Shown here: positions 10,891-62,591 of the stretch, piece after piece
Numbering within the stretch: position 1 is the stretch's first letter
Layout: every line of letters starts with the position of its first letter
From: Natrarchaeobius chitinivorans
GTDB lineage: Archaea; Halobacteriota; Halobacteria; Halobacteriales; Natrialbaceae
DNA: 64,000 nucleotides
Assembly: GCF_003841505.1 (NCBI RefSeq)
Contig: NZ_REGA01000013.1
Coordinates: 1 to 64,000 of the forward strand
Reading direction: 5' to 3'
Notes under the pieces: model-generated
Told to the model about the DNA's origin: nothing
Database searches by the model: none
Seen by the model: only the letters and a program-made list of their open reading frames with translations
Translations under genes and position numbers: made by a program

Positions 10891-10901
10891 ACCGCAGCCA
10901 C

Positions 10902-33010: not shown

Positions 33011-34072
33011 TTACAGCGTGTCGAACTCGACGACCGTCTTGATCCGATCGTCACCGCCCGCCAGTGCGTCCTCGACTTCCGCTGGCGAAAATACGTCGGT
33101 AATGATATCGTCCGTGAACCAGTCTGGAAGTCGGCCGAGCGACTCCTTTGCTGATTCGAAGTGACGGAGATGGGAGTTGACACTACCCAGTAATGCCTTG
33201 TTTTCGAGAACGATCTCGCGGTGCAGTCGGCCGCCGTCGATCTCGAACGACCAGTCGTCCGGAATGCCAAGCAAGACGCCGACGCCGTTCGGTGCGAGCG
33301 CGTCGACCGTCTCGTAGGCGTGTTTCGCGTATCCCGTCGCCTCGTAGACGAGGTCGACGGGTTCGTGCACCTCCGCGATCTCCGAAACCGGCGTCTCGCG
33401 AGAATCGACGTACGTCGCCCCGAGTTCGTCGATCACGTCGATCGTGGGATCGGGGCGGTCTCGGCGACCGAGACAGTACGACCGGTCGACCGTCTCGTCC
33501 AACATCGCGAGGGTCAACAGCCCCAGCGGTCCGTTCCCGAGGACAAGTGCCGTCTCGGGAGACCAGTCGAACATCGACCGAGAAGCGAACGCGTGTTCGA
33601 GCGCCTTGACCGTGTTGCTCATCGGTTCGACGAGAATTCCGGTTTCGGCGAACTCGTCCGGAATCGGGACGAGGTACTCCGCCGGGCTGGTGAAAAACTC
33701 CGCCATAAAGCCGTGCGCACCGTCGATCCCGCGCTCGAGGTACGTACCGGGTGGGGCCATGTCGGGTTCGCCGCGTTCGAAGTACTCGTTCGATCCGGCC
33801 GGCGGTCGGCGGACGGTAGGAACGACGAGCTGGCCCTCCTCGAAGTCGGTTCCGTTCGCATCCTCGACGACGCCGACGGCCTCGTGGCCGAGTACCTGAT
33901 GGTCGTCGCCCTCGGGAAATCCGCCGTGGTTCCCTTCGATCACTTCGAAGTCGGTGCCGTCGATCCCGACACGCAGTGTTCGCATCAACGCCTCGCCCTC
34001 TCCGGGTTCCGGAACGGGCTTTTCGATGAGGCGTGGGGTGTTTTCCCCCCGTTCGACGCCGATTGCCTTCAT
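33011..34072 (-). CDS. gdh: glucose 1-dehydrogenase (NAD(P)+), haloarchaeal type
   Basis: The 353-residue zinc-dependent MDR enzyme closely follows the Haloferax glucose dehydrogenase pattern. Catalytic zinc ligands are in place at Asp38 (GIDGTD), His63 and Glu64 (LGHEAVG), with Glu149 (LVEP). The nucleotide motif is GNGPLG, followed by GRRDRPDP with arginines suited to NADP. It opens the semi-phosphorylative Entner-Doudoroff route by oxidising glucose to gluconolactone. Beside RidA, a SelA-like lyase and a deacetylase, it may oxidise glucosamine instead (inference). Its ATG overlaps the RidA stop by 4 bp. Confidence 0.92.
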   Translation of the reverse strand: MKAIGVERGENTPRLIEKPVPEPGEGEALMRTLRVGIDGTDFEVIEGNHGGFPEGDDHQVLGHEAVGVVEDANGTDFEEGQLVVPTVRRPPAGSNEYFERGEPDMAPPGTYLERGIDGAHGFMAEFFTSPAEYLVPIPDEFAETGILVEPMSNTVKALEHAFASRSMFDWSPETALVLGNGPLGLLTLAMLDETVDRSYCLGRRDRPDPTIDVIDELGATYVDSRETPVSEIAEVHEPVDLVYEATGYAKHAYETVDALAPNGVGVLLGIPDDWSFEIDGGRLHREIVLENKALLGSVNSHLRHFESAKESLGRLPDWFTDDIITDVFSPAEVEDALAGGDDRIKTVVEFDTL

Positions 34073-34449
34073 TGGCTGACCCGTGCGATGATCTCGATCT
34101 CGACGCCGATATCGACGGGGAGATCTTCGACCTGAACGGCGCTTCGGGCCGGATACGGCGCACTCAGGTACTGCTCGTACACGCCGTTAATCGCGTCGTA
34201 GTTGTCCATATCCTGGACGAAGACGGTCGCTTTCACCACGTCGTCGAGCGAACTTCCGGCCGCCTCGAGAACCGCACCGATGTTTTTCATCGTCCGGTGA
34301 GTCTCTTCTTCGATCGTGTCGCCGACGATCTCCTCCGTTTCGGGGTCGATCGGACCCTGTCCCGAGACGTAGACGGTTCCATCGTCGACGATTCCCTGGG
34401 AAAACGGACCAATGCTCGGCGGTGCATCCGACGTAGATACCTCTTTCAT
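34069..34449 (-). CDS. ridA: RidA-family enamine/imine deaminase
   Basis: The 126-residue protein has the conserved ARSAVQV with Arg102, which is required for imine hydrolysis in active RidA proteins, and a terminal LPVDIGVEIEIIA. RidA hydrolyses reactive imines released by PLP enzymes. It has its own TATA-like box and is coupled to gdh, with the PLP-dependent SelA-like gene just upstream on the same strand. Confidence 0.92.
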   Translation of the reverse strand: MKEVSTSDAPPSIGPFSQGIVDDGTVYVSGQGPIDPETEEIVGDTIEEETHRTMKNIGAVLEAAGSSLDDVVKATVFVQDMDNYDAINGVYEQYLSAPYPARSAVQVEDLPVDIGVEIEIIARVSQ

Positions 34450-34524: not shown

Positions 34525-35754
34525 TCAGTGGGACGGACCGACGCAGGCCTCGATGCGATCGAGGACGTAGTCTGCCTCCTCGTCCGTGAGACACATCGGA
34601 TTGATCGTCACGATGTTCTCGTCGAGACGATCCGTTCCGACGAAGACTCGCGGGTTCTCGCGTCGTAACGCACGGACGAGGTCCGTCGCCGACACCCCCG
34701 CTTCGGACGGGACGATATGTACGACGACCTCCGGAGAAACCGACACGTCGTTACCCGACGTGACCGTCGTCTCGAAGCCGTCGATTTCCGAGAGGACAGT
34801 CGAAATTCGAGCGGCCCGATCCTGCCACTCTCGGGCGAGTTCCGCCTGATCCTCCTCGAGGAAGGACTCGAGAGCGACGATCAGACCGGCGAGTTCCTCC
34901 TTGCCGACCTTCATCGGGCGCCCGATTCCCTGGCGAGGAACGGCATCGAGTCGGTCGCCGTCGATGAGGGCAGACGGCGGGTCCCAGACGGCGGCTGCGG
35001 CGTGCATATCGAGTTGCTGTAATGCAATCGATTCGATGAGGTCACGCCTGCCCGCGACGATTCCGGTCGTCTGTGGACCACGAATCGCCTTCCCACCGCT
35101 AAACACGACGAGATCGGCCCCGTCGTCGATAAACCTCGAGAAGTTTTCCACTGGCGGGAGTTCGGCGGCCGCATCCACGATGACCGGAACGTCGTGACGG
35201 TGGGCGATTTTCGTGACGACCTCGAGAGGCGGTTCGGTGTAGGACTTTTGGACGTATCCGATCGCCGCCGTCTCGTCGGAGATCGCAGCTTCGATCTCCC
35301 AGGGTTCGACGTTGGTCGCGCCCGTTCCGAGGTGTCTGTCGTTGGTTCCGACGTCGACGATCGTTGCCCCTGCTGCACGGAAGGCGTGATCGTACCCCGT
35401 GCGGTGAGTCCGGGGCATGATAATTTCGTCGGGGATGCCGGACGTCTCCGGCAGACGATCCATTCGATGAACGTCCCGGCCCGCCAGCGTGGCGGCCGCA
35501 CCGAGAAGGAGGCCCGCGGACGCACCACTCGTTACGTATCCCGCCTCTGCACCGGTTATTTCGGCGATGCGTGCGCTCGCTTCGGCCTGCATATCGGAGA
35601 TTCGAACGAACGAGTCGGACGCCCGGACCATCGCATCGACAGCTTCGCTTCGAATTCGACTGCCGCCGATCCGTGTCTTGGTCCCTGTCGCGTTGATGAC
35701 GGGGGGGACTCCGATCTCGTCGTAGATAGATCCATCTTCGACAACTCCATCCAT
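34525..35754 (-). CDS. SelA-like PLP-dependent enzyme (D-glucosaminate ammonia-lyase / DgaE type)
   Basis: The 409-residue fold-type I PLP enzyme belongs to the SelA-like group. It shows VINATGTKTRIGGSR at the N-terminus, GYVTSGASAG, the PLP aspartate in PVIVDAAAELP (Asp194) and the Schiff-base lysine in VVFSGGKAIRGPQ (Lys222). This group includes enzymes removing ammonia from 2-amino sugar acids to give 2-keto-3-deoxy acids. There is no selenocysteine machinery nearby. The start at 35754 matches a TATA-like box 21-31 bp upstream. It is divergent from iclR. Confidence 0.85.
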   Translation of the reverse strand: MDGVVEDGSIYDEIGVPPVINATGTKTRIGGSRIRSEAVDAMVRASDSFVRISDMQAEASARIAEITGAEAGYVTSGASAGLLLGAAATLAGRDVHRMDRLPETSGIPDEIIMPRTHRTGYDHAFRAAGATIVDVGTNDRHLGTGATNVEPWEIEAAISDETAAIGYVQKSYTEPPLEVVTKIAHRHDVPVIVDAAAELPPVENFSRFIDDGADLVVFSGGKAIRGPQTTGIVAGRRDLIESIALQQLDMHAAAAVWDPPSALIDGDRLDAVPRQGIGRPMKVGKEELAGLIVALESFLEEDQAELAREWQDRAARISTVLSEIDGFETTVTSGNDVSVSPEVVVHIVPSEAGVSATDLVRALRRENPRVFVGTDRLDENIVTINPMCLTDEEADYVLDRIEACVGPSH

Positions 35755-35774
35755 GGGGGTAGTTGCTGGATAGC

Positions 35775-35824
35775 GGATAAAAAAGTTCGGGTGTCCGGCC
35801 GTTTCGTCCTGGGAAATATTAAAG
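35775..35824. promoter_or_regulatory. divergent promoters of the SelA-like gene and iclR
   Basis: GGATAAAAAAG (35775-35785) serves the minus-strand gene and AAATATTAAAG (35814-35824) the plus-strand iclR. The two boxes are 28 bp apart, so one bound regulator could control both. Confidence 0.55.
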
Positions 35825-35849
35825 GTCACCCGGGCAAAACACCTCGTCT

Positions 35850-36596
35850 ATGACTGCAGAGGCGAAAACCGAGACGATCGAAGCGACGAATCGATCGTTT
35901 TCGGTGCTGAACGTGTTAATCGACAGTCCACAACCCGTCGGGGTTACCGAAATCGCATCGCAAACGGAGATGACAAAAAGTACCGTGTACAAGCACGTGA
36001 ACACGCTCGTCGAACTCGGGTACGTCACGAAAGTCGACAGCAAGTACGAACCAGCGCTTCGGTTTCTCGACTGTGCGAGACGGGTCCGGTGGAACGACGA
36101 CCTCGTCCAGACCGTACGGGGGCCGGTCGACGAACTCGCCGAGATGGCGAACGAGGTCGCCGGACTCCTGGTCGAACGCAACGGCGTCGCGGTCGACATC
36201 TACTGTGCAGACCAGTACTACAGCGGGACGTTCCCTGCATACAACACCCGACACTTACACTGCAGCGCCGCTGGAAAGGCGATTCTCGCCGAGTTACCGG
36301 ACGAACGAGTCGAATCCATCGTCAAGACGGCCCCATCGTTGACCGAACACACGATTACGAACCAGGAGGAACTGCAGATCGAACTCAATCGAATTCGCGA
36401 ACGGGGGTTCTCGCTCGACCGCCAGGAGCAGTTCTCGAACGTCAACAGCGTCGCCGTCAGTCTACAGACCGATTCGGTGATCGGCTCCGTCTACGTCTCC
36501 GGACAGGCCGACGAGCTCTCGGGAAAGCGATTCGAGGAGAACATCCCCGGCCTCCTGCTCAGCGTCGCCCGGACGCTCGCGTCCGCACTCGAGTGA
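35850..36596 (+). CDS. IclR-family transcriptional regulator (sugar-acid cluster)
   Basis: The 248-residue regulator has a winged helix (NVLIDSPQPVGVTEIASQTE, MTKSTVYKHVNTLVELGYV) and an effector domain (HCSAAGKAILAELPDERVES, VYVSGQADELSGKRF). Placed between the SelA-like gene and the deacetylase, it is the likely controller of the amino-sugar genes. The effector could be a sugar acid such as KDG, as in KdgR-type IclR proteins (inference). Confidence 0.9.
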   Translation: MTAEAKTETIEATNRSFSVLNVLIDSPQPVGVTEIASQTEMTKSTVYKHVNTLVELGYVTKVDSKYEPALRFLDCARRVRWNDDLVQTVRGPVDELAEMANEVAGLLVERNGVAVDIYCADQYYSGTFPAYNTRHLHCSAAGKAILAELPDERVESIVKTAPSLTEHTITNQEELQIELNRIRERGFSLDRQEQFSNVNSVAVSLQTDSVIGSVYVSGQADELSGKRFEENIPGLLLSVARTLASALE

Positions 36597-36665: not shown

Positions 36666-37367
36666 ATGGAACTGTTAGCAATCGTTGCACATCCGGACGA
36701 TGCAGACATCTTCTGTGGTGGCACACTCGCCAAACACGCAGACCGCGGAGATACGGTTACGATCGCCCACATGACCAAAGGGGAGTACGGCGGGTTCGAC
36801 ACGGACGAAGAGACGATCGCCGAAACGAGAGCGGAGGAAGCACGGCGTTCGGGGAAGAAACTCGGCGCGGACGACGTCACGTTTCTCGGGTTCGAGGACG
36901 GCCGAATCGAATACTCCCTCGAGAAGCGCCTCGAGATCGTCGAGACGATCCGGGCACACGATCCAGACGTGATCCTGACGCACTTCCGTGACGATATGCA
37001 TCCGGACCACAAAGCGACGGCACGGCTCGTCACGGACGCGTACTACATGGCGTCGCTCCCGCTCGTCGACACCGAACACGATCCGTGCGATCCCGACAAC
37101 GTGTACTTCTTCGGGAAGCCGACGTCGTCGTTCGAACCGACGACGTTCGTCGATATCTCGGGATACGAAGATCGGAAAGCCGACGCGATCGATCAACACG
37201 AATCACAGGTCGCGTTCCTCGAGGAACACGGCGGAATCGACGCCGAGTTCGACAACCTCATCGAGGGCGTCGCGGCGGAAGATGCCACTCTCGGCAAACG
37301 GACCGGTGTGGCGAGTGCCGAAGGGTTCGTTGCGCTTCACGATCAGGCCAGCGACTATCTCGGTTGA
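36666..37367 (+). CDS. PIG-L/LmbE-family deacetylase (possible GlcNAc or chitobiose deacetylase)
   Basis: The 233-residue zinc enzyme has AHPDDAD (His9, Asp12) and MHPDH (His112, His115), the complete metal site of PIG-L deacetylases. Members remove acetyl from N-acetylglucosaminyl compounds. In Thermococcales a member deacetylates diacetylchitobiose in chitin breakdown. No export signal is present, so it acts inside the cell. Its position between an IclR gene and a chitin locus supports an amino-sugar substrate. Confidence 0.88.
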   Translation: MELLAIVAHPDDADIFCGGTLAKHADRGDTVTIAHMTKGEYGGFDTDEETIAETRAEEARRSGKKLGADDVTFLGFEDGRIEYSLEKRLEIVETIRAHDPDVILTHFRDDMHPDHKATARLVTDAYYMASLPLVDTEHDPCDPDNVYFFGKPTSSFEPTTFVDISGYEDRKADAIDQHESQVAFLEEHGGIDAEFDNLIEGVAAEDATLGKRTGVASAEGFVALHDQASDYLG

Positions 37368-38244: not shown

Positions 38245-39396
38245 TCACCACTCGGCGATGCTGCCGTCCTCGTGTCGCCAGATCGGGTTCGACCAGTCGA
38301 GGTCCTGGCGCGAACGCTCACGCACGGCCGACTCGTCGATCTCGAGGCCGAGGCCCGGACCGTCGAGCGGGGAGAGGTAGCCGTCGACGAACTCGAAAAC
38401 CGAGGAGTCGTGAAGGTAGTGATCCGCCGCACTCTTCGGTGCCGGATAGATGTCGAACCCGTGATCCTGTACCAGCAGGTTCGGAATGTACGCACTCACT
38501 TGCAACGACGCCGCGAGCGCGATCGGCCCGAGGGGACAGTTCGGCGCGACGGCGACGTCGTGGGCTTCCGCCATCGCCGCGAGTCTGACGAGTTCGGAGA
38601 TACCCCCCGCGTGGGAGACGTCCGGTTGAATCACGTCGATCCCGCCTCGCTGGAACAGCGGTTTGAAATCCCACCGAGAGTAGAGCCGTTCGCCGGTCGC
38701 CATGGGAACGTTGGTCCGTGCCGCGAGGTCCGGGAGGTACTCCAGGTTCTCCGGGAGCAGCGGCTCCTCGACGAACAGGGGATCGAACTCCTCTAAAGCC
38801 CCGATGACCTTCTTTGCGAGCGACTTCGAGATCCGGCCACGGAAGTCGACGACGATATCCATCTCACCGCCGATGACGTCGCGAACGTGTCCGACGCGCT
38901 CGGTGATCTCTTCGACTGCCCCGGGGGGCTCGAGGTGGCGCATCTGATTCGACGCGTCCATCTTCAGGGCGGTGTATCCCGCATCCGACAGCTGTTTCGC
39001 TTCCGTTCCGATCTCCGCGACGCGGTCGCCGCCGATCCACTGGTAGACGCGGATCCGATCCCGTGTCTGTCCCCCGAGCAGTTCGTAGACGGGTACGTCG
39101 AAACTCTTCCCTTTGATGTCCCAGAGAGCCTGGTCGATGCCCGCAATCGCGCTCATCAGGACGGGGCCACCCCTGTAGAAACAGCCACGGTACATCGCTT
39201 GCCAGTGATCTTCGATATTGTGCGGATCTTTCCCGACGAGGTAGCCGTTCATCACCTCTTCGACCGCAGTCCGAACGGTTCTGGCCCGACCTTCGACGAT
39301 CGGTTCCCCCCACCCGGTAACGCCGGCGTCGGTCTCGATTTTCAGGAAGAGCCAACGCGGCGGGACTTCGAACAGTTCGTAATCGGTGATTTTCAT
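38245..39396 (-). CDS. enolase-superfamily sugar-acid dehydratase (DgoD-like) with replaced catalytic histidines
   Basis: The 383-residue protein aligns along its whole length with D-galactonate/gluconate dehydratases (PPRWLFLKIETDAGVTGWGE, FYRGGPVLMSAIAGIDQALW, WRHEDGSIAEW at the end). Metal ligands are present: Asp184, Glu210 and Glu236. In E. coli DgoD the acid/base residues are His185 and His285. Here the matching positions are Arg186 (VVDFRGR) and Asn286 (APNCPLGPIALAA). The enzyme therefore either uses another base, acts on another acid (for example an amino-sugar acid) or is inactive. The TATA box is at 39420-39430. Confidence 0.88.
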   Translation of the reverse strand: MKITDYELFEVPPRWLFLKIETDAGVTGWGEPIVEGRARTVRTAVEEVMNGYLVGKDPHNIEDHWQAMYRGCFYRGGPVLMSAIAGIDQALWDIKGKSFDVPVYELLGGQTRDRIRVYQWIGGDRVAEIGTEAKQLSDAGYTALKMDASNQMRHLEPPGAVEEITERVGHVRDVIGGEMDIVVDFRGRISKSLAKKVIGALEEFDPLFVEEPLLPENLEYLPDLAARTNVPMATGERLYSRWDFKPLFQRGGIDVIQPDVSHAGGISELVRLAAMAEAHDVAVAPNCPLGPIALAASLQVSAYIPNLLVQDHGFDIYPAPKSAADHYLHDSSVFEFVDGYLSPLDGPGLGLEIDESAVRERSRQDLDWSNPIWRHEDGSIAEW

Positions 39397-39536: not shown

Positions 39537-40814
39537 ATGAGAGAGCATACTCGCCGGAAGGTGTTAGCAACGACTGGTGCAGTAAGCGCATTCAGTCTAG
39601 CAGGGTGTATCAGTGATGGGAACGGCGACGGGACGACGATCGAAACACGGTACATGGACGCTCCAGGTGCCGAAGAGTACTTCGAAGAACACGCCGCGAA
39701 CTTCGAAGAGGAGACCGGCATTCACGTCGAATTCGAGTTCGTCGGGTGGGGTGAAGCCCAGGAAGTCCTGATGAGCGACATCACGAGCCAGACCGGCCCG
39801 GACGTCCAGGAGATCGCCTCGACGTGGATCCCCGAGCAGGCCGACGCGGGCGGATGGATGGACCTCGAGTCCGACGAGGTCGTCGATCACATCCCGGACA
39901 CCGGGATGTTCGAGGAGGGTGCGATGGACGTCGCGACGTTCCAGGACGACCTCGTCGGTATCCCGTGGTTCTGGGGGCCGCGCGCGTGGCAGCAGGTCGA
40001 CGAAGAGGTCGAAAACGGCGGCGTCGGCGGACATCCCGACGACTGGGACGACCTCGTCGACCAGGCCCAGTCCTACGACGGGGACAACGATTTCTTCGCG
40101 CTGATGGGGTCGGACTTCGAACCCATGCGGAACTTCGCGATGTTCCTCTGGCAGAGCGGCGGACAACTGCTCAACGACGACCTCTCCGAACCGGCGTTTC
40201 ACAACGAGGAGGGGGTTCAAGCACTCGAGTTCTACGCCGATCTGTACCGGGAGTACGACGTGTTGCCGTCGGAGACGGTCGAGTGGGCCGCAGCCGACAT
40301 CAACGGCGCGTTCGCGGGTCGACAGATGGCCAGCACGGTCGACGCCCTCGGAACGGTCGGTGCGTACGAGGACGAGGACGGTCACTCGCTCGACGACCTC
40401 TCTATCTCCGCCCCGCCAGCCGGTCCCGACGGCGACGGCGGCACGTTCTTCGGCATGGAACTGCTCGGCATCCACCCGTGGACCGACGAACCCGAAGCGG
40501 CCGCCCAGTGGATCGACTACCTGCTGCGTGCCGAACCCAACGCCGAGATTTCGAGTACGATCGGCTTCCTGCCGACGAACCCCGACGGGTTCGACACCGA
40601 CTACTACGATCACGACCTGTACGACGCGTTCAACGAAGACGTCTTCCCGGTCGCACAGACGTACCCACAGGTGCTCGGTTGGGGTGAGATCGAAGGCGAA
40701 CTCAACAGCGTCGTCGCCGAGGTCATCCAGAACGCCGTCACCGGTGACCTCGAGGACGGAGACATCGAGGACGCCCTCGACGACGCCGCGGAAGTCGCAC
40801 ACCAGACGTTGTAA
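39537..40814 (+). CDS. sugar ABC transporter substrate-binding lipoprotein
   Basis: The 425-residue protein has a Tat signal (T-R-R at 5-7) and lipobox SLAGC with Cys24, then a solute-binding fold (TYMDAPGAEEYFEEH-like start, GIPWFWGPRAWQQVDEE, STIGFLPTNPDGF). It is the first gene of the second importer. Next to chitin and amino-sugar genes, chito-oligomers or GlcNAc are the most likely ligands (inference). A TATA-like GTATAATG lies about 35 bp upstream. Confidence 0.9.
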   Translation: MREHTRRKVLATTGAVSAFSLAGCISDGNGDGTTIETRYMDAPGAEEYFEEHAANFEEETGIHVEFEFVGWGEAQEVLMSDITSQTGPDVQEIASTWIPEQADAGGWMDLESDEVVDHIPDTGMFEEGAMDVATFQDDLVGIPWFWGPRAWQQVDEEVENGGVGGHPDDWDDLVDQAQSYDGDNDFFALMGSDFEPMRNFAMFLWQSGGQLLNDDLSEPAFHNEEGVQALEFYADLYREYDVLPSETVEWAAADINGAFAGRQMASTVDALGTVGAYEDEDGHSLDDLSISAPPAGPDGDGGTFFGMELLGIHPWTDEPEAAAQWIDYLLRAEPNAEISSTIGFLPTNPDGFDTDYYDHDLYDAFNEDVFPVAQTYPQVLGWGEIEGELNSVVAEVIQNAVTGDLEDGDIEDALDDAAEVAHQTL

Positions 40815-40989: not shown

Positions 40990-41976
40990 ATGGCGAGTAC
41001 GACGAGACAATTCCGAAGACGAGTAGCCGATCTTCAACTCGGGAACTATCTCCCGTTTTACAGTCGGCTATCCGAAGAGCAACGCTTTGCATACAAGCTC
41101 CTCGCACCGGGGCTTGCGATGATGTGTATCATCCACTTTCTCCCGATCATCTGGGGGACGCTGATCAGTTTTATGGGGGTCGACTCGACCTACGCCCGAC
41201 AGTGGCACAACGCACCGTTCGTCGGCCTCGAGAACTACCTCTACGTGCTCGATCCGCGTACCGTCATCGGCGGTCGGTTCTGGTTCTCGATCCGCCAGAC
41301 TGTCATCTTCGCTGTGGGATCGCTCGTCGTGACCTACGTCCTCGGGCTGACGGCGGCGCTGGTCCTCAACCAGAAATTCAAAGGCCGGTTCGTAGCGCGG
41401 ACCCTGCTGTTGCTCCCGTGGGTCGCGCCGGTCGTCGTCACGCTGCTCATCTGGCGGATGATGTTCCAGCAACAGAGCGGGATCATCAACAACATCCTCC
41501 TCTCGATCGGGATCATCGACGAACCGATCTACTGGCTGATCGGTGACAACACCATCTGGACGCTCGTGCTTACCCACTCCTGGACGCAGTTCCCGCTGGT
41601 CATGATTATGCTCTACGCCGGCCTCCAGGGGATCCCTCAACAGCTGTACGAGGCTGCCTCTATCGACGGAGCCAGCCGCTGGCAGAAGTTCCGGTACGTC
41701 ACCTTTCCACAACTGAAGCCGGTTTCGGCGGTCGTCGTGTTGCTCGTGATGTTGTGGACGATGATCAACTTCACCGCACCGTACGTTCTTCTCGGGGCAC
41801 AGCCCCCACGGGCCGGCCAGGTCGGCATTCTGTACATCTACGAGTTCGCCTTCTCGAACTTCCAGTTCGGACGCGGAGCCGCGATGAGCGTGATCCTCTT
41901 TATCATCGCGATGACGATGGCGATGGTCTACTACAAATATCTCTTCGATGACGACTTCACGGAGGATTCCCAATGA
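40990..41976 (+). CDS. sugar ABC transporter permease (MalF-like)
   Basis: The 328-residue membrane protein has the EAA loop QLYEAASIDGASRWQKFRYV and a strongly hydrophobic LLLPWVAPVVVTLLIW segment. It overlaps the next permease by 4 bp (ATGA). Confidence 0.92.
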   Translation: MASTTRQFRRRVADLQLGNYLPFYSRLSEEQRFAYKLLAPGLAMMCIIHFLPIIWGTLISFMGVDSTYARQWHNAPFVGLENYLYVLDPRTVIGGRFWFSIRQTVIFAVGSLVVTYVLGLTAALVLNQKFKGRFVARTLLLLPWVAPVVVTLLIWRMMFQQQSGIINNILLSIGIIDEPIYWLIGDNTIWTLVLTHSWTQFPLVMIMLYAGLQGIPQQLYEAASIDGASRWQKFRYVTFPQLKPVSAVVVLLVMLWTMINFTAPYVLLGAQPPRAGQVGILYIYEFAFSNFQFGRGAAMSVILFIIAMTMAMVYYKYLFDDDFTEDSQ

Positions 41977-42899
41977 TTCCCGAAGAACTACAGCTCTCGT
42001 CGGCCACAAAGGACCGTCTATTCGGACTGCTCGTAAAGGGAGTACTCGGCACTCTGTTGCTGTACGCCCTGTTTCCCATCTACTGGATGGTGATCTCGAG
42101 TTTCCGAACCCGAACCGAGATCACGGCCGCAGACCCACAGCTACTTCCGGTCGAACTCGGGCAGATCCCGGCTATCGTTCAGGACCCTGCACTCCTGTTG
42201 GAGATCCTCCACTACGAGAACTACATCACGATGTGGGCGCGGTTCCCAGTGTTAGATTACTTCATCAACAGTCTCATCATCGCCACCACGACGACCGTGT
42301 TCGCCCTCGTCGTCGGCTGTCTGGGCGGGTACGCCTTCTCGAAGTATCGGTTCCCCGGAAAGGGAGGCGTCGGCGGTGCCCTGCTCGGAACCCAGATGAT
42401 CCCCGGAATCCTCATCCTGCTCCCGATGTATCTGCTTTTCATCTGGATTCAAGACACGATCGGATTCCCGATGACCAACACCTATCACGGAATCATCTTC
42501 GTCTACACCACGTTTACCGTCCCGGTAGCGATCTGGATGCTCAGGGGCTTTTTCGACACGATTCCCGACTCGGTCGAAGAGGCGGCTCGAGTCGACGGCT
42601 GTTCGCGGATACAGGCACTCGTCCGGATCATCCTCCCGATGGCCGCGCCAGGGATTGCGGCGACCGGGATGTTCGTCTTCCTCGTCGCGTTCAACGAGGT
42701 GCTGTTCGCGTCGATTCTCGCCAGCGGCGACGTGACACCGTTTGCGATCGGTATTCAGAGCTTCGAGACACAGACGACGGCCTACTGGGGTGAGATGATG
42801 GCGGCGTCGACCGTGGCGACGGCTCCGATCCTCCTCCTGTTCGTCCTCTTCCAGAAACCGATCGTCGAAGGGCTAACCGAGGGGAGCGTCAAGCAGTAG
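41973..42899 (+). CDS. sugar ABC transporter permease (MalG-like)
   Basis: The 308-residue membrane protein has the EAA loop SVEEAARVDGCSRIQALVRI. A GGAGG ribosome-binding site lies 7 bases before its ATG inside the upstream gene, and the 4-bp overlap indicates coupled translation. Confidence 0.92.
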   Translation: MIPEELQLSSATKDRLFGLLVKGVLGTLLLYALFPIYWMVISSFRTRTEITAADPQLLPVELGQIPAIVQDPALLLEILHYENYITMWARFPVLDYFINSLIIATTTTVFALVVGCLGGYAFSKYRFPGKGGVGGALLGTQMIPGILILLPMYLLFIWIQDTIGFPMTNTYHGIIFVYTTFTVPVAIWMLRGFFDTIPDSVEEAARVDGCSRIQALVRIILPMAAPGIAATGMFVFLVAFNEVLFASILASGDVTPFAIGIQSFETQTTAYWGEMMAASTVATAPILLLFVLFQKPIVEGLTEGSVKQ

Positions 42900-42957: not shown

Positions 42958-42980
42958 CTGCGAAAACCAGGTGAGTGCAA

Positions 42981-44147
42981 ATGGCCCGTGTTATCGTAGA
43001 CGATCTGACGAAGGAGTACAACTCTCCTGGGGGCTCGATCCTGGCAGTCGACGAGTTGAACCTCGAGATCGACGACGGCGAGTTCGTCGTCTTTGTCGGT
43101 CCGTCCGGGTGTGGAAAGTCGACGACGCTTCGGTGTATCGCAGGACTCGAGACGGTTACCGATGGCACACTTCACTTCGGCGACGAGGATGTCACGGATC
43201 AAAAGCCCAAAGAACGGAACATCGCGATGGTGTTTCAAAACTACGCGCTGTACCCGCACATGACCTCACGGGAGAACATGGCGTTCGGGCTGAAGATGTC
43301 GACTGACCTCTCGAAAGACGTGATCGACGAACGCGTCGAGGACACCGCCGAGATGATGGGGATCAAAGAGTTGCTCGCTGACAAACCGAAGGCGCTCTCG
43401 GGTGGCCAACAGCAACGCGTCGCACTTGGCCGGGCGATCGTTCGCGATCCGGAAGTCTTCCTGATGGACGAACCGCTCTCGAACCTCGATGCCAAGCTTC
43501 GCGCCCAGATGCGAACAGAACTCCAGCAGTTACAGAGCGAACTGGACGTAACGACGGTGTACGTCACCCACGATCAGACGGAGGCAATGACGATGGGCGA
43601 CCGGATCGTCGTTCTCAACGACGGGAAACTCCAGCAGGTCGGAACCCCCCTCGAGTGTTATCACAGACCTGCAAACAGGTTCGTCGCGGGATTCCTCGGA
43701 TCGCCCCCAATGAACTTCCTCGAGGTCGACGTCGACCTCGAAAGCGGGACGCTCTCGAACTCGGCGTTTTCGCTCCCGATTCCGGAATCGGCCGTCGACG
43801 ACGTCAGCGGGTCGAAACTGACACTCGGAATTCGACCGGAGCACGTCTCACTCGTCGACGCTGTGGAAACCCACGCCGAACCCGATCACCTGATCGAGAC
43901 GGAAGTCACCGTCACCGAGCCGATGGGAGACATAACGAACGTCTATCTCGACGTCGGTGGGGAATCGCTGACCGTCACCTCCGACGACCGCCTCGGGGTC
44001 AGAGGCGGAGACACGGTCCACATACACGTGCCAGCCGCGAAGATACACCTGTTCGATGCCGAATCGGGCGAAGCGATCAAACACAGCGACGAGCCGATCG
44101 ATTCGACGCGGATCGCGGAAGCCAGTGGCCACGCCGAAACGGCGTGA
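42981..44147 (+). CDS. sugar ABC transporter ATP-binding protein (MalK/UgpC family)
   Basis: The 388-residue ATPase has Walker A GPSGCGKST at 40-48, LSGGQQQR at 139-146, Walker B FLMDEP at 160-165 and a C-terminal OB/TOBE region ending in an acidic tail. MalK-type ATPases often serve several importers. It has its own promoter, so its level can be set apart from the permeases. Confidence 0.92.
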   Translation: MARVIVDDLTKEYNSPGGSILAVDELNLEIDDGEFVVFVGPSGCGKSTTLRCIAGLETVTDGTLHFGDEDVTDQKPKERNIAMVFQNYALYPHMTSRENMAFGLKMSTDLSKDVIDERVEDTAEMMGIKELLADKPKALSGGQQQRVALGRAIVRDPEVFLMDEPLSNLDAKLRAQMRTELQQLQSELDVTTVYVTHDQTEAMTMGDRIVVLNDGKLQQVGTPLECYHRPANRFVAGFLGSPPMNFLEVDVDLESGTLSNSAFSLPIPESAVDDVSGSKLTLGIRPEHVSLVDAVETHAEPDHLIETEVTVTEPMGDITNVYLDVGGESLTVTSDDRLGVRGGDTVHIHVPAAKIHLFDAESGEAIKHSDEPIDSTRIAEASGHAETA

Positions 44148-44660: not shown

Positions 44661-46652
44661 ATGAAACGAACACGTCGAAACGTTTTGAGTAACGCGACGA
44701 GACTGTCCGCACTGCTTGCCGGAATCGGTGCAAGCGGTGCAGCAGCGGCCCAGGAGTACCCCGAATGGGACCCCGACACGGCGTATACGGGGGGTGACCG
44801 GGTCGTCTACGACGGCTCTGTTTGGGAAGCCCAGTGGTGGACCCAAGGGGACGAACCGAGTGAGGACTCGAGCGTCTGGGAGCTGGTCGAGGACGGCAAC
44901 GGAGGGAACGACGACGAAAACGGCGACGTCGACTACCCCGCGTGGGATCCCGACGTCGTCTACACCGGCGGCGACCGCGTCGTCTACGACGGCTACGTCT
45001 GGGAGGCCAACTACTGGACCCAGGGAGACGAGCCCGGCGAAAGCGAGTGGGGCCCCTGGGAGGAGATCGAAGAGCACGACGACGATGATGATGACGAGGA
45101 CGAGGACGAACTGACTGCACGATTTACCGTCAGCAACCAGTTCCCGGATCCCGGCGACGAGATCGAGTTCGACGCCTCCGACTCCGAAGGCGAGATCGAG
45201 TCCTACGAGTGGGAGTTCGGCGACGGAACCGAAGCCAGCGGTGAGGTCGTCACACACTCGTTCGACGAGGGTCAGTACGACGTGACGCTGACCGTCGAGA
45301 ACGCCGACGGCGAGACCGACACCGATTCGATCAGGATCACGGCGGGGCGTCCCTCGTCGGACGAAAAGCGCGTCGTCGCGTACTACCGCCAGTGGGCGCA
45401 GTACGATCGCGAATTCGTGCCGGCGGACATCCCGTACGACCAGGTCACGCACGTGCAGTACGCGTTCGCACGACCCGAGTCGGACGGATCGGTCAACCTC
45501 GTCGGCGACTCCCACGGCCAGCAGGCCTTCTGGGCGGAAGAGGACTGGCAGGGTGTCGAGGGCGGCACCTTCGCCGAACACGCCGCCGAGCACGACGACA
45601 CCAAGTTCGTCCTGTCGATCGGCGGCTGGGGCGACTCGCGGTACTTCTCCGATGCAGCGCTGACCCAGGAGAACCGGGAGCGCTTCGCCGAGGACTGTAT
45701 CGAGTGGATCGAACGGGGCAACTTAGACGGCATCGACATCGACTGGGAGTTCCCCGGCGGTGGCGGCTGTACGTCCGAAGACGCCGAAGAGCCCGCCAGC
45801 GTCTGTCCGAGCGATGGCAACATCGTCCGCGAGGGCGACCAGGAGCGCTTTACGCTGCTTTGTGAGACGGTTCGAGAGCGCCTGGACGAGCACGCACAGG
45901 AGGTCGGTCGCGACGAGCCCTACGAGCTCACCGCAGCCGTCTCGGCCAATCCCGACGTCGCCGAAGGAGTCGAGGATGGCAACGACGGACTCGAGCACGA
46001 GAAGCTCTCGGACCTGCTTGATTTCATTCTGGTGATGACGTTCGATTACGCTGGAGTGTGGTCCGAGACGACCCGTCATCACGCCCCGCTGCGGTCGAGC
46101 CCGGACGATCCGTTCGACGAGGCCGACACGTGGAACGCAGAGTACGCACTCCAGTACTGGGAGGAACAGGGCTGGGACCCAGACCAGCTCAACATGGCCG
46201 TCCCGTTCTACGGACGGAGCTGGGACGATGTCCAGCCGCCAGAGGGTGACTTCGGAACCGGCGAGAACGACGGCCTCTTCCAGGAGTACGAGGGTGAAGG
46301 AGCCGACGCCAGCATGGACGGCTCCTATCCGTCGCCTCCCGGCAGCCCCGGCTCCCAGCTTGGCGGTGTCTTCGAGTGGTTCGACCTCGAGGGCGACGGC
46401 CGCGGGGGGAGCAACTCCGTCAACCTGGACAGCTCCGATTGGGAGGTCCACTTCGACGAGGACGCGATCGCCGCGTGGGCCTGGAACGAAACCACCGGGG
46501 AGATGATCAGCTACGAGTCCGAGGAGTCGATGGCAGCCAAAATGAACTGGCTCCGTCAGTCGCCCTACGGCGGGACGATGCTGTGGGCCATCGGTGGAGA
46601 CACCTACGAAGGCGATCTCATCGGGGCCCTCTGGAACAACCTCAACGGCTGA
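44661..46652 (+). CDS. exported GH18 chitinase (CBM5/12 x2, PKD, GH18)
   Basis: The 663-residue enzyme starts with a Tat signal (MKRTRRNVL, cut near AAAQ at about 32). Two chitin-binding CBM5/12 repeats follow (about 33-75 and 94-135, WDP-x-x-x-YTGGDRVVYDG ... WWTQGDEP), then an Asp-rich linker, a PKD domain (about 150-230) and a GH18 barrel (about 238-663). The GH18 motif DGIDIDWE spans Asp356 to Glu363, and MTFDYAG is the later MxxD strand. It hydrolyses chitin outside the cell with retention through the acetamido group. The TGA stop begins a B-type repeat. Part of the N-terminal DNA is nearly identical to that of the gene at 56532. Confidence 0.93.
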   Translation: MKRTRRNVLSNATRLSALLAGIGASGAAAAQEYPEWDPDTAYTGGDRVVYDGSVWEAQWWTQGDEPSEDSSVWELVEDGNGGNDDENGDVDYPAWDPDVVYTGGDRVVYDGYVWEANYWTQGDEPGESEWGPWEEIEEHDDDDDDEDEDELTARFTVSNQFPDPGDEIEFDASDSEGEIESYEWEFGDGTEASGEVVTHSFDEGQYDVTLTVENADGETDTDSIRITAGRPSSDEKRVVAYYRQWAQYDREFVPADIPYDQVTHVQYAFARPESDGSVNLVGDSHGQQAFWAEEDWQGVEGGTFAEHAAEHDDTKFVLSIGGWGDSRYFSDAALTQENRERFAEDCIEWIERGNLDGIDIDWEFPGGGGCTSEDAEEPASVCPSDGNIVREGDQERFTLLCETVRERLDEHAQEVGRDEPYELTAAVSANPDVAEGVEDGNDGLEHEKLSDLLDFILVMTFDYAGVWSETTRHHAPLRSSPDDPFDEADTWNAEYALQYWEEQGWDPDQLNMAVPFYGRSWDDVQPPEGDFGTGENDGLFQEYEGEGADASMDGSYPSPPGSPGSQLGGVFEWFDLEGDGRGGSNSVNLDSSDWEVHFDEDAIAAWAWNETTGEMISYESEESMAAKMNWLRQSPYGGTMLWAIGGDTYEGDLIGALWNNLNG

Positions 46653-46975: not shown

Positions 46976-48892
46976 ATGAAACGATCACGACGTGACATAC
47001 TGAACGACGCATCGAAGGTACCGATCCTGTTTGCCGGACTCAGTGCGAGTTCGGCGGCAGTAATGGCACAGGAGTATCCCGAGTGGGACCCTGACGAGGT
47101 GTACAACTCCGGCGACCGGGTCGTCTACGACGGTTCGGTCTGGGAAGCCCAGTGGTGGACACAGGGTGACGAACCCAGCACTGGTCCTGGTCCCTGGGAA
47201 CAGGTCGAGGACGGCAACGGAGAGAACGGTAACGAAAACGGCGACTACCCCGCGTGGGATCCCGACGTCGTCTACACCGGCGGCGACCGCGTCGTCCACG
47301 ACGGCTACGTCTGGGAGGCAAACTGGTGGACCCAGGGCGACGAGCCCGGGGAAAGTCAGTGGGGCCCCTGGGAGGAGGTCGGACCGGTCGACAACGATCC
47401 GGAACCCGAGCCCCCGGGACTGGAAGCCAACATCGACTCGAGTACGACCCGTATCGAAGTGGGTGAGGAAGTCGAACTCGACGGCTCCGGCTCCGAAGGC
47501 GACATCGAGTCCTACGAGTGGGACCTCGGCGATGGGACAGAGGCAAGCGGCGACGTCGTCACCCACACCTACGAAGAGACGGGCGAGTACACGGTCGAAC
47601 TGACCGTCACCGACGCGGACGGCGAGACCGACACCGCGTCTGTCGTCCTGGACGTCCTCGACGAGATCGAAGGGCCGGGCGATGACTTCAAAGTCGTCGG
47701 CTACTACCCCGGCTGGAAGGCCAACGAAGAGCAAGATTACTACCCGAGTGACATCCCCTTCGACAAGGTGACCGACGTCCTGTACGCGTTCATCGGGCTC
47801 GACGATCAGGGTAACGTCTTCCCACCCGAAGACGACGAGACCGAGTTCGACATCGACCGCCAGAGCCACGAGGAAAACCTGGAGGAGTTCGCCGGACTGG
47901 CCGACGACGTCGACTGTCGGTTCCACCTCTCGGTCGGCGGCTGGACGCTGTCGGATGACTTCCACATCATCGCTTCCGATCCGGATCTGCGCGAAACGTT
48001 CGCAGAGAACTGCGTCGAGTTGATGCGAGAGTACAACTTCGACGGCGTCGACATCGACTGGGAACACCCCGGTCCCGAGCAGGGACAGTGTCAGTGTGGC
48101 AACGACGACGACTACGAGACCCACGTCCTCTTGCTCGAGGAGCTTCGCGAGAAACTCGACGAGGCGGCCGACGAGGACGGACAGTACTACTACCTGTCAG
48201 TGGCAAACGGCGGCTCCGACTGGAACGCCGGCGGCATTCGCCACGATCAGGTCGGCGAGATCTGTGACTCGGTGTACGTCATGGCCTACGACTTCACCGG
48301 CGAGTGGATGGACACAATGGGTCTGAACGCGCCGCTTTACGGTCCCGACACCCACCCAACGGACGATCAGGACGTCTACCCGGACGGCGAACAGTACTGG
48401 GCCGAGTACTCCGTCGATACACTGTGGGCCGGTGATCACGGCGACGATGGCTACTGGCCCGGTCAGTGGGAGTACCCTGCTGCCGATCCCGCGGAGTACG
48501 ACGAACTCGTGCTTGGCATGCCGTTCTACGGACGCGGGTTCGAGGCCGGCTTCGGTGGACCCGAACTGGGCGCGCGGTTCAACAGCCTCCCGGAGGGGAC
48601 CTGGCATCACCTCCTCGCGGATGGCGAGGACGCGACCGGCGCGTTCGACTTCGGTGACATCGAAGAGAACCTGCGTGACGACGACGACTGGGAAGTCAAC
48701 CGCCACGAGATGGGTGAAGTGCCGTACCTCGTCAACGAGGACGAAGGGGTCCTCATCAGCTACGACGACGAGGACGCCATCGAGGCGAAAGTCGAGTTCG
48801 CCAAAGAACGCGGTATGCAGGGCGTGATGTTCTGGGAGCTGGCCCAGGACTGGAACGAGACGCTGCTCGACACGATCCTGCAGAACATCTGA
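46976..48892 (+). CDS. exported GH18 chitinase (CBM5/12 x2, PKD, GH18)
   Basis: The 638-residue enzyme has Tat signal MKRSRRDIL, two CBM5/12 repeats (about 35-75 and 85-127), a PKD domain (about 145-220) and GH18 from about 232 with FDGVDIDWEHPGP (Asp356 to Glu363) and VMAYDFTG. The barrel contains a cysteine-bearing insert (QCQCGNDDD), unusual for an exported halophile protein. It lacks an A+T-rich upstream tract and probably shares the transcript of the preceding chitinase. Its TGA stop starts a full B element. Confidence 0.93.
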   Translation: MKRSRRDILNDASKVPILFAGLSASSAAVMAQEYPEWDPDEVYNSGDRVVYDGSVWEAQWWTQGDEPSTGPGPWEQVEDGNGENGNENGDYPAWDPDVVYTGGDRVVHDGYVWEANWWTQGDEPGESQWGPWEEVGPVDNDPEPEPPGLEANIDSSTTRIEVGEEVELDGSGSEGDIESYEWDLGDGTEASGDVVTHTYEETGEYTVELTVTDADGETDTASVVLDVLDEIEGPGDDFKVVGYYPGWKANEEQDYYPSDIPFDKVTDVLYAFIGLDDQGNVFPPEDDETEFDIDRQSHEENLEEFAGLADDVDCRFHLSVGGWTLSDDFHIIASDPDLRETFAENCVELMREYNFDGVDIDWEHPGPEQGQCQCGNDDDYETHVLLLEELREKLDEAADEDGQYYYLSVANGGSDWNAGGIRHDQVGEICDSVYVMAYDFTGEWMDTMGLNAPLYGPDTHPTDDQDVYPDGEQYWAEYSVDTLWAGDHGDDGYWPGQWEYPAADPAEYDELVLGMPFYGRGFEAGFGGPELGARFNSLPEGTWHHLLADGEDATGAFDFGDIEENLRDDDDWEVNRHEMGEVPYLVNEDEGVLISYDDEDAIEAKVEFAKERGMQGVMFWELAQDWNETLLDTILQNI

Positions 48893-48975: not shown

Positions 48976-49185
48976 ATCCCGACCACTGTGGTGGACCGAG
49001 AGGCACATCCGTCGCGGACGGGTACGGGTCAGCATACCCGACGCGATTTCGGAACTCACCAGTAGTGAACCGTTTCCGAAGGAAATAGCGAGTATACTCG
49101 ACACCGAGAACGACTCGAGACACGCTCCGGGAACGGTCGGATTCCCGTGGGAGCCCCCTTTCATAACGACACACAACACGTAATC

Positions 49186-50871
49186 ATGAAACGAACGCGA
49201 CGCAACGTACTCGGTACAGCATCGACAGTTACAGCACTCCTGTTCGGCGCGAGCGTGAGCAGCGCCGAACAGGAGCACCCCGAGTGGGACCCCGACGACG
49301 TGTACACCTCGGGCGACCGGGTCGTCTACGACGGCTCGGTCTGGGAAGCCCAGTGGTGGACACAGGGCGAGGAGCCTGAGACGGGTCCCGGTCCCTGGGA
49401 ACAGGTCGACGAAGACGACGGAAACGGCAACGACGACGACGGCGAGAACGACGACGGCGACTACCCAGCGTGGGATCCGGACGCGGTCTACACCGGAGGC
49501 GACCGCGTCGTCCACGACGGCTCCGTCTGGGAGGCAAACTGGTGGACTCAGGGCGACGAACCCGGGGAAAGCCAGTGGGGCCCGTGGGAGGAGATAGAGG
49601 AACACGATCCCGGCCTGGAAGCCGCGATCGACGTCAGGCCCGGCCGTCCCGATCCCGGCGAAGAACTCACCGTCGACGGCTCCGGGTCCAGCGGTGAAAT
49701 CGATCGCTACGAGTGGGATCTCGGCGACGGTACCGAAGCCGACGGAGAAATCGTCACGCACAGCTACGACGAGGAGGGCGAGTACACGATCGAACTAACC
49801 CTCGTTGGTGCGGACGGCGACCGGGATAGCACCGAGACCATCCTCACGGTCGCCGACGGGGACGACGGGGGCTGGCCGGGCGAAGACCACCCCGTTATGG
49901 CCTACGAGTTCAGCGGTCCTGCACCCGCCGAGAAGGTCACCCACGTCATCCAGACGTTCGGCGACGTCGCCGCCGACGGATCGGTCTCCGTCCCGTGGGA
50001 CGTCGGCGGCGTCGACGGCGCTGTGACGCTGTTGTCGATCGGCGGCTGGGGGAACTCGGATGGGTTCCCACAGACCGCCGCCGACGCCGAGAGTCGCGAA
50101 CGGTTCGCGAGCGACTGTGTCGACCTCATGCGCGAACACGACATCGACGGGATCGACATCGACTGGGAGTATCCCGGACCGTTCGGTCCCGACGGCCTCG
50201 TCTCCTACGACGACGACCCCGAGAACTTCACGGCGCTATTGAGCGAGTGTCGCCAGCAGTTCGACGAGGCTGCCACGGAAGACGACACGGAGTACTACCT
50301 CACGGCGGCGCTGTCGGCCCACGAAGAGCACCTCGAGATCCTCGAGCACGAAGAGCTGGCCGACGTGCTCGACTTCGCGAAGATGATGACCTACGATATG
50401 CACTCGCCCGGACTGGAGTGGGTCGAGTACACCAATCACAACGCGCCGCTTTACTCGAATCCGGAGTCGCCGACCGACAAGTCGGTCCACGACACGATGA
50501 CGTACATGCAAGAGCAGGGCTGGCCGGAACACAAACTCGTCCTCGGGCTCGCCTTTTACGGACGGGAGTATTCCGGCGTCGAAAGCGCCGAGAACGACGG
50601 CCTGTTTCAGCCGTTCTCGAGTGCGGGTGCGGTCCCGTCCTATCCGGAGATCCAGGACGGGTTCGACGACTACGATCGACTGTGGGACGACGAAGCCAAG
50701 GTGCCGTGGCGTTTCGACGGGGAGAACCTGCTCGGCTACGACGACGAGGAGTCGATCGCCATCAAAGCGGAGTATGCGTCCGAACACGGGTATCCACTGA
50801 TGTACTGGGCGTCGGGCCACGATCCGAACGAAACGCTGGTTGATGCGGTGAACGATGCGCTCGACAAGTAG
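49186..50871 (+). CDS. exported GH18 chitinase (CBM5/12 x2, PKD, short GH18)
   Basis: The 561-residue enzyme has Tat signal MKRTRRNVL, CBM5/12 repeats (about 27-65 and 88-130), PKD (about 140-215) and a compact GH18 barrel from about 230 with DGIDIDWEYPG (Asp321 to Glu328), LLSIGGWGNS and MMTYDMHS. The barrel lacks the first strand insertions of its neighbours. An in-frame GTG at 49147 would add 13 residues before the signal and is not favoured. Confidence 0.92.
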   Translation: MKRTRRNVLGTASTVTALLFGASVSSAEQEHPEWDPDDVYTSGDRVVYDGSVWEAQWWTQGEEPETGPGPWEQVDEDDGNGNDDDGENDDGDYPAWDPDAVYTGGDRVVHDGSVWEANWWTQGDEPGESQWGPWEEIEEHDPGLEAAIDVRPGRPDPGEELTVDGSGSSGEIDRYEWDLGDGTEADGEIVTHSYDEEGEYTIELTLVGADGDRDSTETILTVADGDDGGWPGEDHPVMAYEFSGPAPAEKVTHVIQTFGDVAADGSVSVPWDVGGVDGAVTLLSIGGWGNSDGFPQTAADAESRERFASDCVDLMREHDIDGIDIDWEYPGPFGPDGLVSYDDDPENFTALLSECRQQFDEAATEDDTEYYLTAALSAHEEHLEILEHEELADVLDFAKMMTYDMHSPGLEWVEYTNHNAPLYSNPESPTDKSVHDTMTYMQEQGWPEHKLVLGLAFYGREYSGVESAENDGLFQPFSSAGAVPSYPEIQDGFDDYDRLWDDEAKVPWRFDGENLLGYDDEESIAIKAEYASEHGYPLMYWASGHDPNETLVDAVNDALDK

Positions 50872-51893: not shown

Positions 51894-52014
51894 ATATACA
51901 ACAATTTTATTCTAGATGTGTTTATTGAGAGGATAAAATTTTATAGTCGATGAAATTGATAATTATGTGTATCGGTTCCCGACGCGTCCGTCGGGGACCG
52001 CCAGATCGCCACCT
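51894..52014. promoter_or_regulatory. A+T-rich upstream tract of the unusual barrel gene
   Basis: About 70 bases (51895-51967) are nearly pure A/T with ATTTTATT and AAATTTTATAG stretches, in sharp contrast to the surroundings. A TATA-like element must lie inside, but its exact position cannot be fixed. Confidence 0.5.
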
Positions 52015-59964: not shown

Positions 59965-60606
59965 CCGCGCCATCGCGGTTCACTCGTCCGGACAGAAATA
60001 CCGGCTTCGGCGGTCCCGACTGATCACTTTTTCTCGTGTCCACACCCGTGGGCCTCCGTTCGAAGTCCAGTCTGGATATGCGACGTTCCCGTCGGCGAGT
60101 CTATCGACTCGTCCGACGAACAAGGGCAAATCGCGGACCGTCCCGAGCACGAAGACGGTGAGGTCGTCGTCTCCTCCGGAGGACTCGAGCAGACCGAGTG
60201 AACAACGGAACAATGGGACAGCATAAATACATCCTGATTTGATAGTTCACACTAACAAGTATTTTTTAAAAATAGTATATATTTTGGTTTGTTAGAAGAG
60301 GTTCAGGAGAGGAATAAGTTCGGTGAACGATCCACGAACAGACAAGCTGTTAGCCTAGGCTTTTCGTTTCCCACGAACCTCGACGAGGATACGCTGGTAG
60401 TAGTGTTGATTAATCAATATTTCTTCGATCACTATTCCCTCAGTATACTAAATATTTTCCTGAATGTACAGATTTATTACCAATGCCACAAGATAATTGG
60501 TAGCGTCTCGCACGAGGCGTTGCGGTACGAGAGGATAGCCGTGTGTTCGCTCGATCGGGCGAGGGCAACTCACGGATCACGGATATCACGGCCCACAATT
60601 ACGACC
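59965..60606. other. gap with an acidic frame remnant and A+T-rich tracts
   Basis: A short plus-strand frame ending at 60201 (IADRPEHEDGEVVVSSGG) has acidic, haloarchaeal-like composition but no start or family and may be a gene scrap. A+T-rich tracts at about 60225-60300 and 60410-60500 precede the next chitinase by 100-380 bp. Confidence 0.45.
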
Positions 60607-62385: not shown

Positions 62386-62591
62386 ATGTGCTCGAGTAAT
62401 CTCGCTCGAGTGAACGCACTCGGGACGTCCCGAAAGGACGGTCGTTCGCGGACGCGACGACGGTTCGAAGTGGCTGATCGCGGACGCACTGGCCGTTCGA
62501 AGAGCGGACCACGGCTTGCACACACGTTCGCAGTTTGCGATGCGACACGAATCGCTCGTCAAACGAACGCTGCGGCATACGAACGAATACG

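Follow-up and report, generated by a model that had tools for sequence, protein, structure and literature searches.

The nearest known relatives of the protein described here form the galactonate dehydratase (DgoD) group of the enolase superfamily, represented by the NCBIfam model NF010624 and the Ralstonia pickettii structures 3rr1 and 3rra, with which it shares its fold, three metal ligands and a lysine on beta-2 (Lys145). In DgoD, the beta-7 histidine is taken as the catalytic base and the beta-3 histidine as the acid. The D-mannonate dehydratases (ManD; 3vcn, 4gme and 3ow1), about 30% identical to our protein, adopt the same superfamily fold and, along with 2poz, represent the next closest solved group; unlike our protein, 4gme and 3vcn keep the beta-3 and beta-7 histidines.

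In the accessible text of a 2025 report (PMC12343721; Fig. 5 legend), chitinase clusters of Natrarchaeobius include a gene labelled GAD; both this gene and its cluster are of the same type as ours. Those portions of the report treat GAD as a galactonate dehydratase, mention no residue change and assign none of the steps of the pathway in Fig. 6 to it, and they propose that glucosamine is used via an unknown kinase, a phosphorylated route and KDPG. The available portions of PMC3102087 discuss both haloarchaeal galactonate dehydratase and N-acetylglucosamine (GlcNAc) use, and leave the two unlinked. PMC12343721 was the only report found on haloarchaea, chitin and glucosaminate together, and the titles and abstracts retrieved on the enolase superfamily and glucosaminate, on glucosaminate together with archaea and dehydratases, and on missing histidines (with thin coverage of subscription papers) did not describe the variant reported here.

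The His-less protein and its gene cluster

We analysed a 64,000-nucleotide stretch of Natrarchaeobius chitinivorans (NZ_REGA01000013.1, positions 1 to 64,000), hereafter the window, whose relevant genes are collected in Table 1. The gene of interest encodes a DgoD-like protein that we call His-less; its ORF lies on the minus strand, and the plus-strand frame over the same bases contains a stop. An earlier sequence-only reading had considered new chemistry or a new substrate such as an amino-sugar acid plausible in this cluster; the neighbouring genes and their recurrence in other genomes support an amino-sugar cluster.

Table 1. Features of the chitin and amino-sugar cluster, in window coordinates.
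Feature	Position	Strand	Remarks
Glucose dehydrogenase family protein (Glu_dehyd_C), candidate glucosamine oxidiser	33011..34072	-	
RidA-family enamine/imine hydrolase	34069..34449	-	
DgaE/SelA-like PLP ammonia-lyase	34525..35829	-	His-162/His-163 of DGL and the arginines of its phosphate site are missing
IclR-family regulator	35850..36596	+	
PIG-L family deacetylase, candidate GlcNAc/chitobiose deacetylase	36666..37367	+	
DgoD-like enolase-superfamily protein, His-less, 383 aa	38245..39396	-	D184/E210/E236 kept; D147, R186, N286, D311 for N, H, H, E
Sugar ABC transporter substrate-binding protein	39537..40814	+	
Two ABC permease genes (40990-41976, 41973-42899)	40990..42899	+	from position and conserved synteny
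UgpC/MalK-type ABC ATPase	42975..44147	+	
GH18 chitinase with CBM5/12 and PKD domains	44661..46652	+	
GH18 chitinase with CBM5/12 and PKD domains	46976..48892	+	
GH18 chitinase	49147..50871	+	
GH20 beta-N-acetylhexosaminidase with CBM5/12	54038..56254	+	
GH18 chitinase	60289..62385	+	

By Pfam, the window also encodes CBM5/12 and PKD proteins with no catalytic domain (51967-53928 and 62535-63956) and another with only a weak GH18 match (56532-58070). Chitin-binding proteins without a GH18 domain are mentioned for such clusters in the accessible text of PMC12343721.

NF010624 matches the His-less protein over its whole length at 575.8 bits (cut-off 311), and Pfam recognises the N- and C-terminal MR_MLE domains (PF02746, 98.6 bits; PF13378, 213.1 bits). 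The best structural homologue is 3rr1_A, annotated as a D-galactonate dehydratase and aligned over residues 2-383 at 446 bits; together with 3rra it is the nearest solved protein. Foldseek with an AlphaFold2 model built from 38 window and locus sequences (mean pLDDT 87) likewise returned 3rr1 as the top match (TM 0.91, 51% identity). The sequence-only reading had proposed an end-to-end match to DgoD with Asp184, Glu210 and Glu236 in place, and Arg186 and Asn286 at the positions of His185 and His285, which are E. coli DgoD numbers. Alignment to 3rr1, with which we compared the residues, upholds both points (DFHGR to DFRGR, APHCPLGP to APNCPLGP, and QEQS to QDHG), but the set of replacements was incomplete: two changes coupled to these, N147>D and E311>D, had been overlooked.

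Across the 39 distinct sequences that share all four changes (see below), the acidic metal ligands at the ends of beta-3, -4 and -5 are present in every case. The position of the beta-3 catalytic histidine (His185) is Arg186 in 39/39, against His in 62/62 canonical relatives; that of the beta-7 histidine (His285) is Asn286 in 39/39, again against His in 62/62; and the residue at the end of beta-8, which we take to be Glu310 of DgoD, is Asp311 in 39/39 and Glu in 62/62. Because the residues expected of a galactonate dehydratase are replaced at these positions, the His-less protein is best filed, judging from its sequence, as an uncharacterised DgoD-group variant with ties to the catabolism of amino sugars. 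In the model, beta-2 (strand 143-147) ends with Asp147, at the position that a catalytic Lys, the second of a KxK motif, occupies in mandelate racemase. Asp is found at this position in further enolase-type paralogues of the host, which keep the histidines, so Asp147 alone proves nothing.

Eleven MR_MLE_C matches were found in the host genome, of which the His-less protein is the only one at the DgoD level (E<=1e-110). The same genome has no match to NagB (PF01182) and none to NagA above the cut-off, so the standard route for GlcNAc cannot be recognised in the host by these profiles.

Conservation of the four-residue signature

Among 80 relatives fetched, which are the best 80 of 360 confirmed on genome contigs, R186/N286 occur in 15, all with D147 and D311; four are a second variant (V2) with R186 and a retained H286, and 61 are canonical. 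A larger set of 105 distinct sequences, counted apart from 237 records of a plasmid search, holds 39 with the full signature, four V2 and 62 canonical, and positions 147, 186, 286 and 311 part the 39 from the 62 without exception. When 16 signature and 61 canonical sequences are aligned, the two groups are told apart by 6 of 383 positions (147, 151, 186, 286, 311 and 313); the chance that at least four of eight named active-site positions, the eight being our own choice, fall among these six is about 1e-6. At a 90% cut, the 39 signature and 62 canonical sequences of the larger set yield ten separating positions (156, 314, 336 and 344 added).

The 39 signature sequences form one clade in a quick maximum-likelihood tree (SH-aLRT 98-100), with a mean identity of 71% and a minimum of 57%. 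One member, from Natrarchaeobius chitinivorans AArcht7, is 92% identical to the His-less protein and carries all four changes. Invariant positions number 137 of 383, including all metal ligands and Lys145, and the invariant N147>D, H186>R, H286>N and E311>D, together with linkage to amino-sugar genes, set the clade apart from DgoD. Comparison of the signature gene with four relatives yielded dN/dS values of 0.053, 0.073, 0.067 and 0.125, which indicate purifying selection. Decay, a pseudogene or a sequencing error was considered and is ruled out by the 39 distinct sequences and dN/dS of 0.05-0.13; the sequence-only reading was right to call the change a specific replacement, and the sequences support its being specific, old and conserved. 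Arg186 and Asn286 do mark a conserved clade among haloarchaeal relatives, and all same-residue homologues found sit in this uncharacterised clade, none of them a proven ordinary dehydratase.

Both histidines are kept in the examined relatives from Haloferax, Haloarcula and bacteria, and among the 80 named loci, 18 of them bacterial, the signature was found in none beyond the haloarchaea. A pattern search of 391 haloarchaeal genomes matched 35, of which 34 were known already; a match in genome G277 was rejected as chance (AGC codon, other place). Since the search overlooked 5 of the 39 known signature genomes, a few additional members may exist.

V2, from Halohasta and Halobellus (loci L064, L070, L075 and L081), shares R186, lacks Glu at 311 and groups with the His-less clade; unlike that clade, it keeps H286, has Ala311 and, in three of four sequences, carries Gln at metal-ligand position 236. 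The two are sisters with a joint SH-aLRT of 90, under the 95 mark, and from this placement the change of His to Arg at 186 and the loss of Glu311 may be older than the loss of His286. V2 neighbours include an FGGY kinase gene and a gene of the class II aldolase type, each with Pfam confirmation in L064 only. The V2 ORFs of L064, L070 and L081 lie near 10001-11149; a PdxA-like gene stands beside V2 in L081, and a similar one occurs in L075.

Linkage to DgaE-like PLP enzymes

In counts drawn from related, non-independent genomes, 88 of 391 haloarchaeal genomes carry a DgaE-like gene (E<=1e-80): all 39 whose signature gene was verified by residues, versus 49 of the other 352. By coordinates, the signature gene lies within 10 kb of a DgaE-like gene in 38 of the 39; in the exception, G073, the enolase-type gene starts 236 bases from a contig end. 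Among the named loci, which are partly the same organisms as these genomes so that the linkage counts overlap, a DgaE-like gene lies within 10 kb in 15/15 signature loci versus 0/65 others, some of them on short contigs. The 21 sampled signature loci, including the query locus, contain genes for IclR (21), DgaE (21), PIG-L (17), glucose dehydrogenase (16), the substrate-binding protein (16) and RidA (14). The corresponding counts in 57 DgaE loci taken as signature-less, two of them (L168 and L169) being fragments of the split G073, are IclR 8, PIG-L 30, glucose dehydrogenase 11, RidA 19 and substrate-binding protein 1. The set is minimal in Halomicrobium katesii, with DgaE, the enolase-type gene and IclR in a row and nothing else, while in Halostella (L049; the minimal set is L021) the enolase, PIG-L, ATPase, RidA and DgaE genes all lie on one strand.

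According to the accessible text of PMC9529869, D-glucosaminate-6-phosphate ammonia-lyase (DGL) holds the phosphate at Arg301/332/346, its H163A mutant lets the enamine go, and RidA-type enzymes break the enamine down. The window DgaE-like protein scores 192.6 against NF047797 (cut-off 600) and has E, G and M at the three arginine positions and S and Y at His162/His163. Of 88 haloarchaeal DgaE-like sequences, 87 have Gly for R332; R346 is Met in 30/30 linked and 46/58 unlinked sequences, R301 is retained in 4/30 linked and 0/58 unlinked, and His-163 is replaced in 88/88, including the 58/58 without a His-less partner. With the phosphate-site arginines and the proton-donor His-163 gone, these residues suggest an unphosphorylated substrate, glucosaminate, and release of the enamine, the latter fitting the presence of RidA in the cluster. 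In principle, the DgaE-like enzyme could with RidA take glucosaminate to KDG alone.

One clade of 35 rows in the DgaE tree takes in all but one of the 28 linked sequences (27 of 28), the exception being Halostella. Eight rows of this clade are unlinked: three are second copies in signature genomes, two come from the split G073, and three belong to G160, G228 and G336, which have no His-less gene nearby. These three, and the 49 genomes with DgaE but no His-less gene, indicate that the amino-sugar route can apparently run without the His-less protein. G160, from the host's genus, is a natural loss; it keeps DgaE, while the DgoD family has no match there at E<=1e-110 and the fetched region contains no PIG-L.

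Proposed function and alternatives

Our preferred reading, held tentatively and at a little under even confidence, is that the His-less protein is a repurposed DgoD-type enzyme of an unphosphorylated amino-sugar-acid route, with a C1-C3 site rebuilt for a 2-amino or 2-acetamido acid. In such a route, chitin would be taken up as GlcNAc or chitobiose and deacetylated by PIG-L, glucosamine would be oxidised to glucosaminate, and glucosaminate would lose water and ammonia on the DgaE-like PLP enzyme with RidA to give KDG. The His-less protein would retain the Mg site and C4-C6 pocket of DgoD, its C1-C3 site being rebuilt for glucosaminate, N-acetylglucosaminate or the 2-amino-2-enoate of the PLP enzyme. 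Most likely it acts at the C1-C3 end of glucosaminate or of one of its close derivatives and is not a galactonate dehydratase; glucosaminate or a derivative is our best guess at the substrate, from the gene context and the clustering of the changes at the metal end of the barrel. Asp147 on beta-2, beside Lys145, would be the only obvious substitute acid/base after loss of the beta-3 and beta-7 histidines, and Arg186 and Asn286 may bind the C2/C3 substituents, although the chemistry at Asp147 and the exact reaction are guesses. Possible, with the greater weight lying against it, is the more specific proposal that the protein carries out a reaction new to the enolase superfamily, with an amino-sugar acid as substrate and Asp147, Arg186 and Asn286 as its centre, and that it would form a chitin-to-KDG route beside an atypical PLP ammonia-lyase for unphosphorylated glucosaminate.

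The loss of the presumed general acid weighs against ordinary dehydration of any kind, the preferred reading included, and with both histidines gone conventional dehydration by the His-less protein is unlikely. The NF010624 score, the match to 3rr1 in identity and fold, and the status of sole host match at E<=1e-110 would all accord with an ordinary galactonate or gluconate dehydratase that uses Asp147 and Arg186 in place of the histidines, with a correct annotation and a coincidental cluster context; yet canonical relatives retain both histidines and the glutamate without exception, and the signature gene always accompanies DgaE as none of the other named loci do, which makes this quite improbable. 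The same missing acid/base groups could instead point to a non-catalytic role, in which the protein would bind Mg and a sugar acid as a sensor, scaffold or regulator. Retention of the metal ligands, Lys145 and the other invariant positions across 39 sequences fits an enzyme, and we regard such a role as distinctly unlikely.

A function as enamine tautomerase, in which the protein binds the 2-amino-2-enoate from the DgaE-like enzyme and directs its protonation to the imine or keto acid alongside RidA, would draw on the universal replacement of the C3 proton donor His-163, on the enamine freed by DGL H163A (accessible text of PMC9529869) and on RidA in the cluster. Against it, the lost beta-3 histidine is the group expected to serve C3, and the idea of the His-less gene as a specific cure for DgaE without His-163 was rejected because partnerless DgaE lacks that residue too (58/58); we consider a tautomerase unlikely. 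Retention of the metal and distal pocket with loss of alpha-proton chemistry could also suit a non-enolate reaction, such as metal-dependent hydrolysis of a glucosaminate lactone made by the dehydrogenase, and no lactonase was recognised among the profiled cluster genes. Such an activity is not known in the enolase superfamily, however, and aldonolactones also open spontaneously at alkaline pH, so that this reading appears very improbable.

Family models report a galactonate dehydratase far above cut-off even though the activity-defining residues are gone in a fixed way, and a galactose route predicted for the host from this gene would rest on a doubtful label, given that it is the only DgoD-family match there at E<=1e-110. 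For glucosamine use by chitin-eating haloarchaea, the phosphorylated route in the accessible text of PMC12343721 stands against PLP-enzyme residues that point to an unphosphorylated one. In the His-less clade, the active site of an enolase-superfamily enzyme has been altered at four positions at once, which makes the clade a clean example of such a change.

No general rule emerged for a second enolase-type gene (MR-like KxK) found near some DgaE genes. The host's second DgaE-like copy (G000:C10:120044-121279; L153), 68% identical and with one stop in the matched stretch, has an MR-type enolase gene some 10 kb away, and similar MR-type genes occur near DgaE in L149, L154-L156, L158, L160 and L204.
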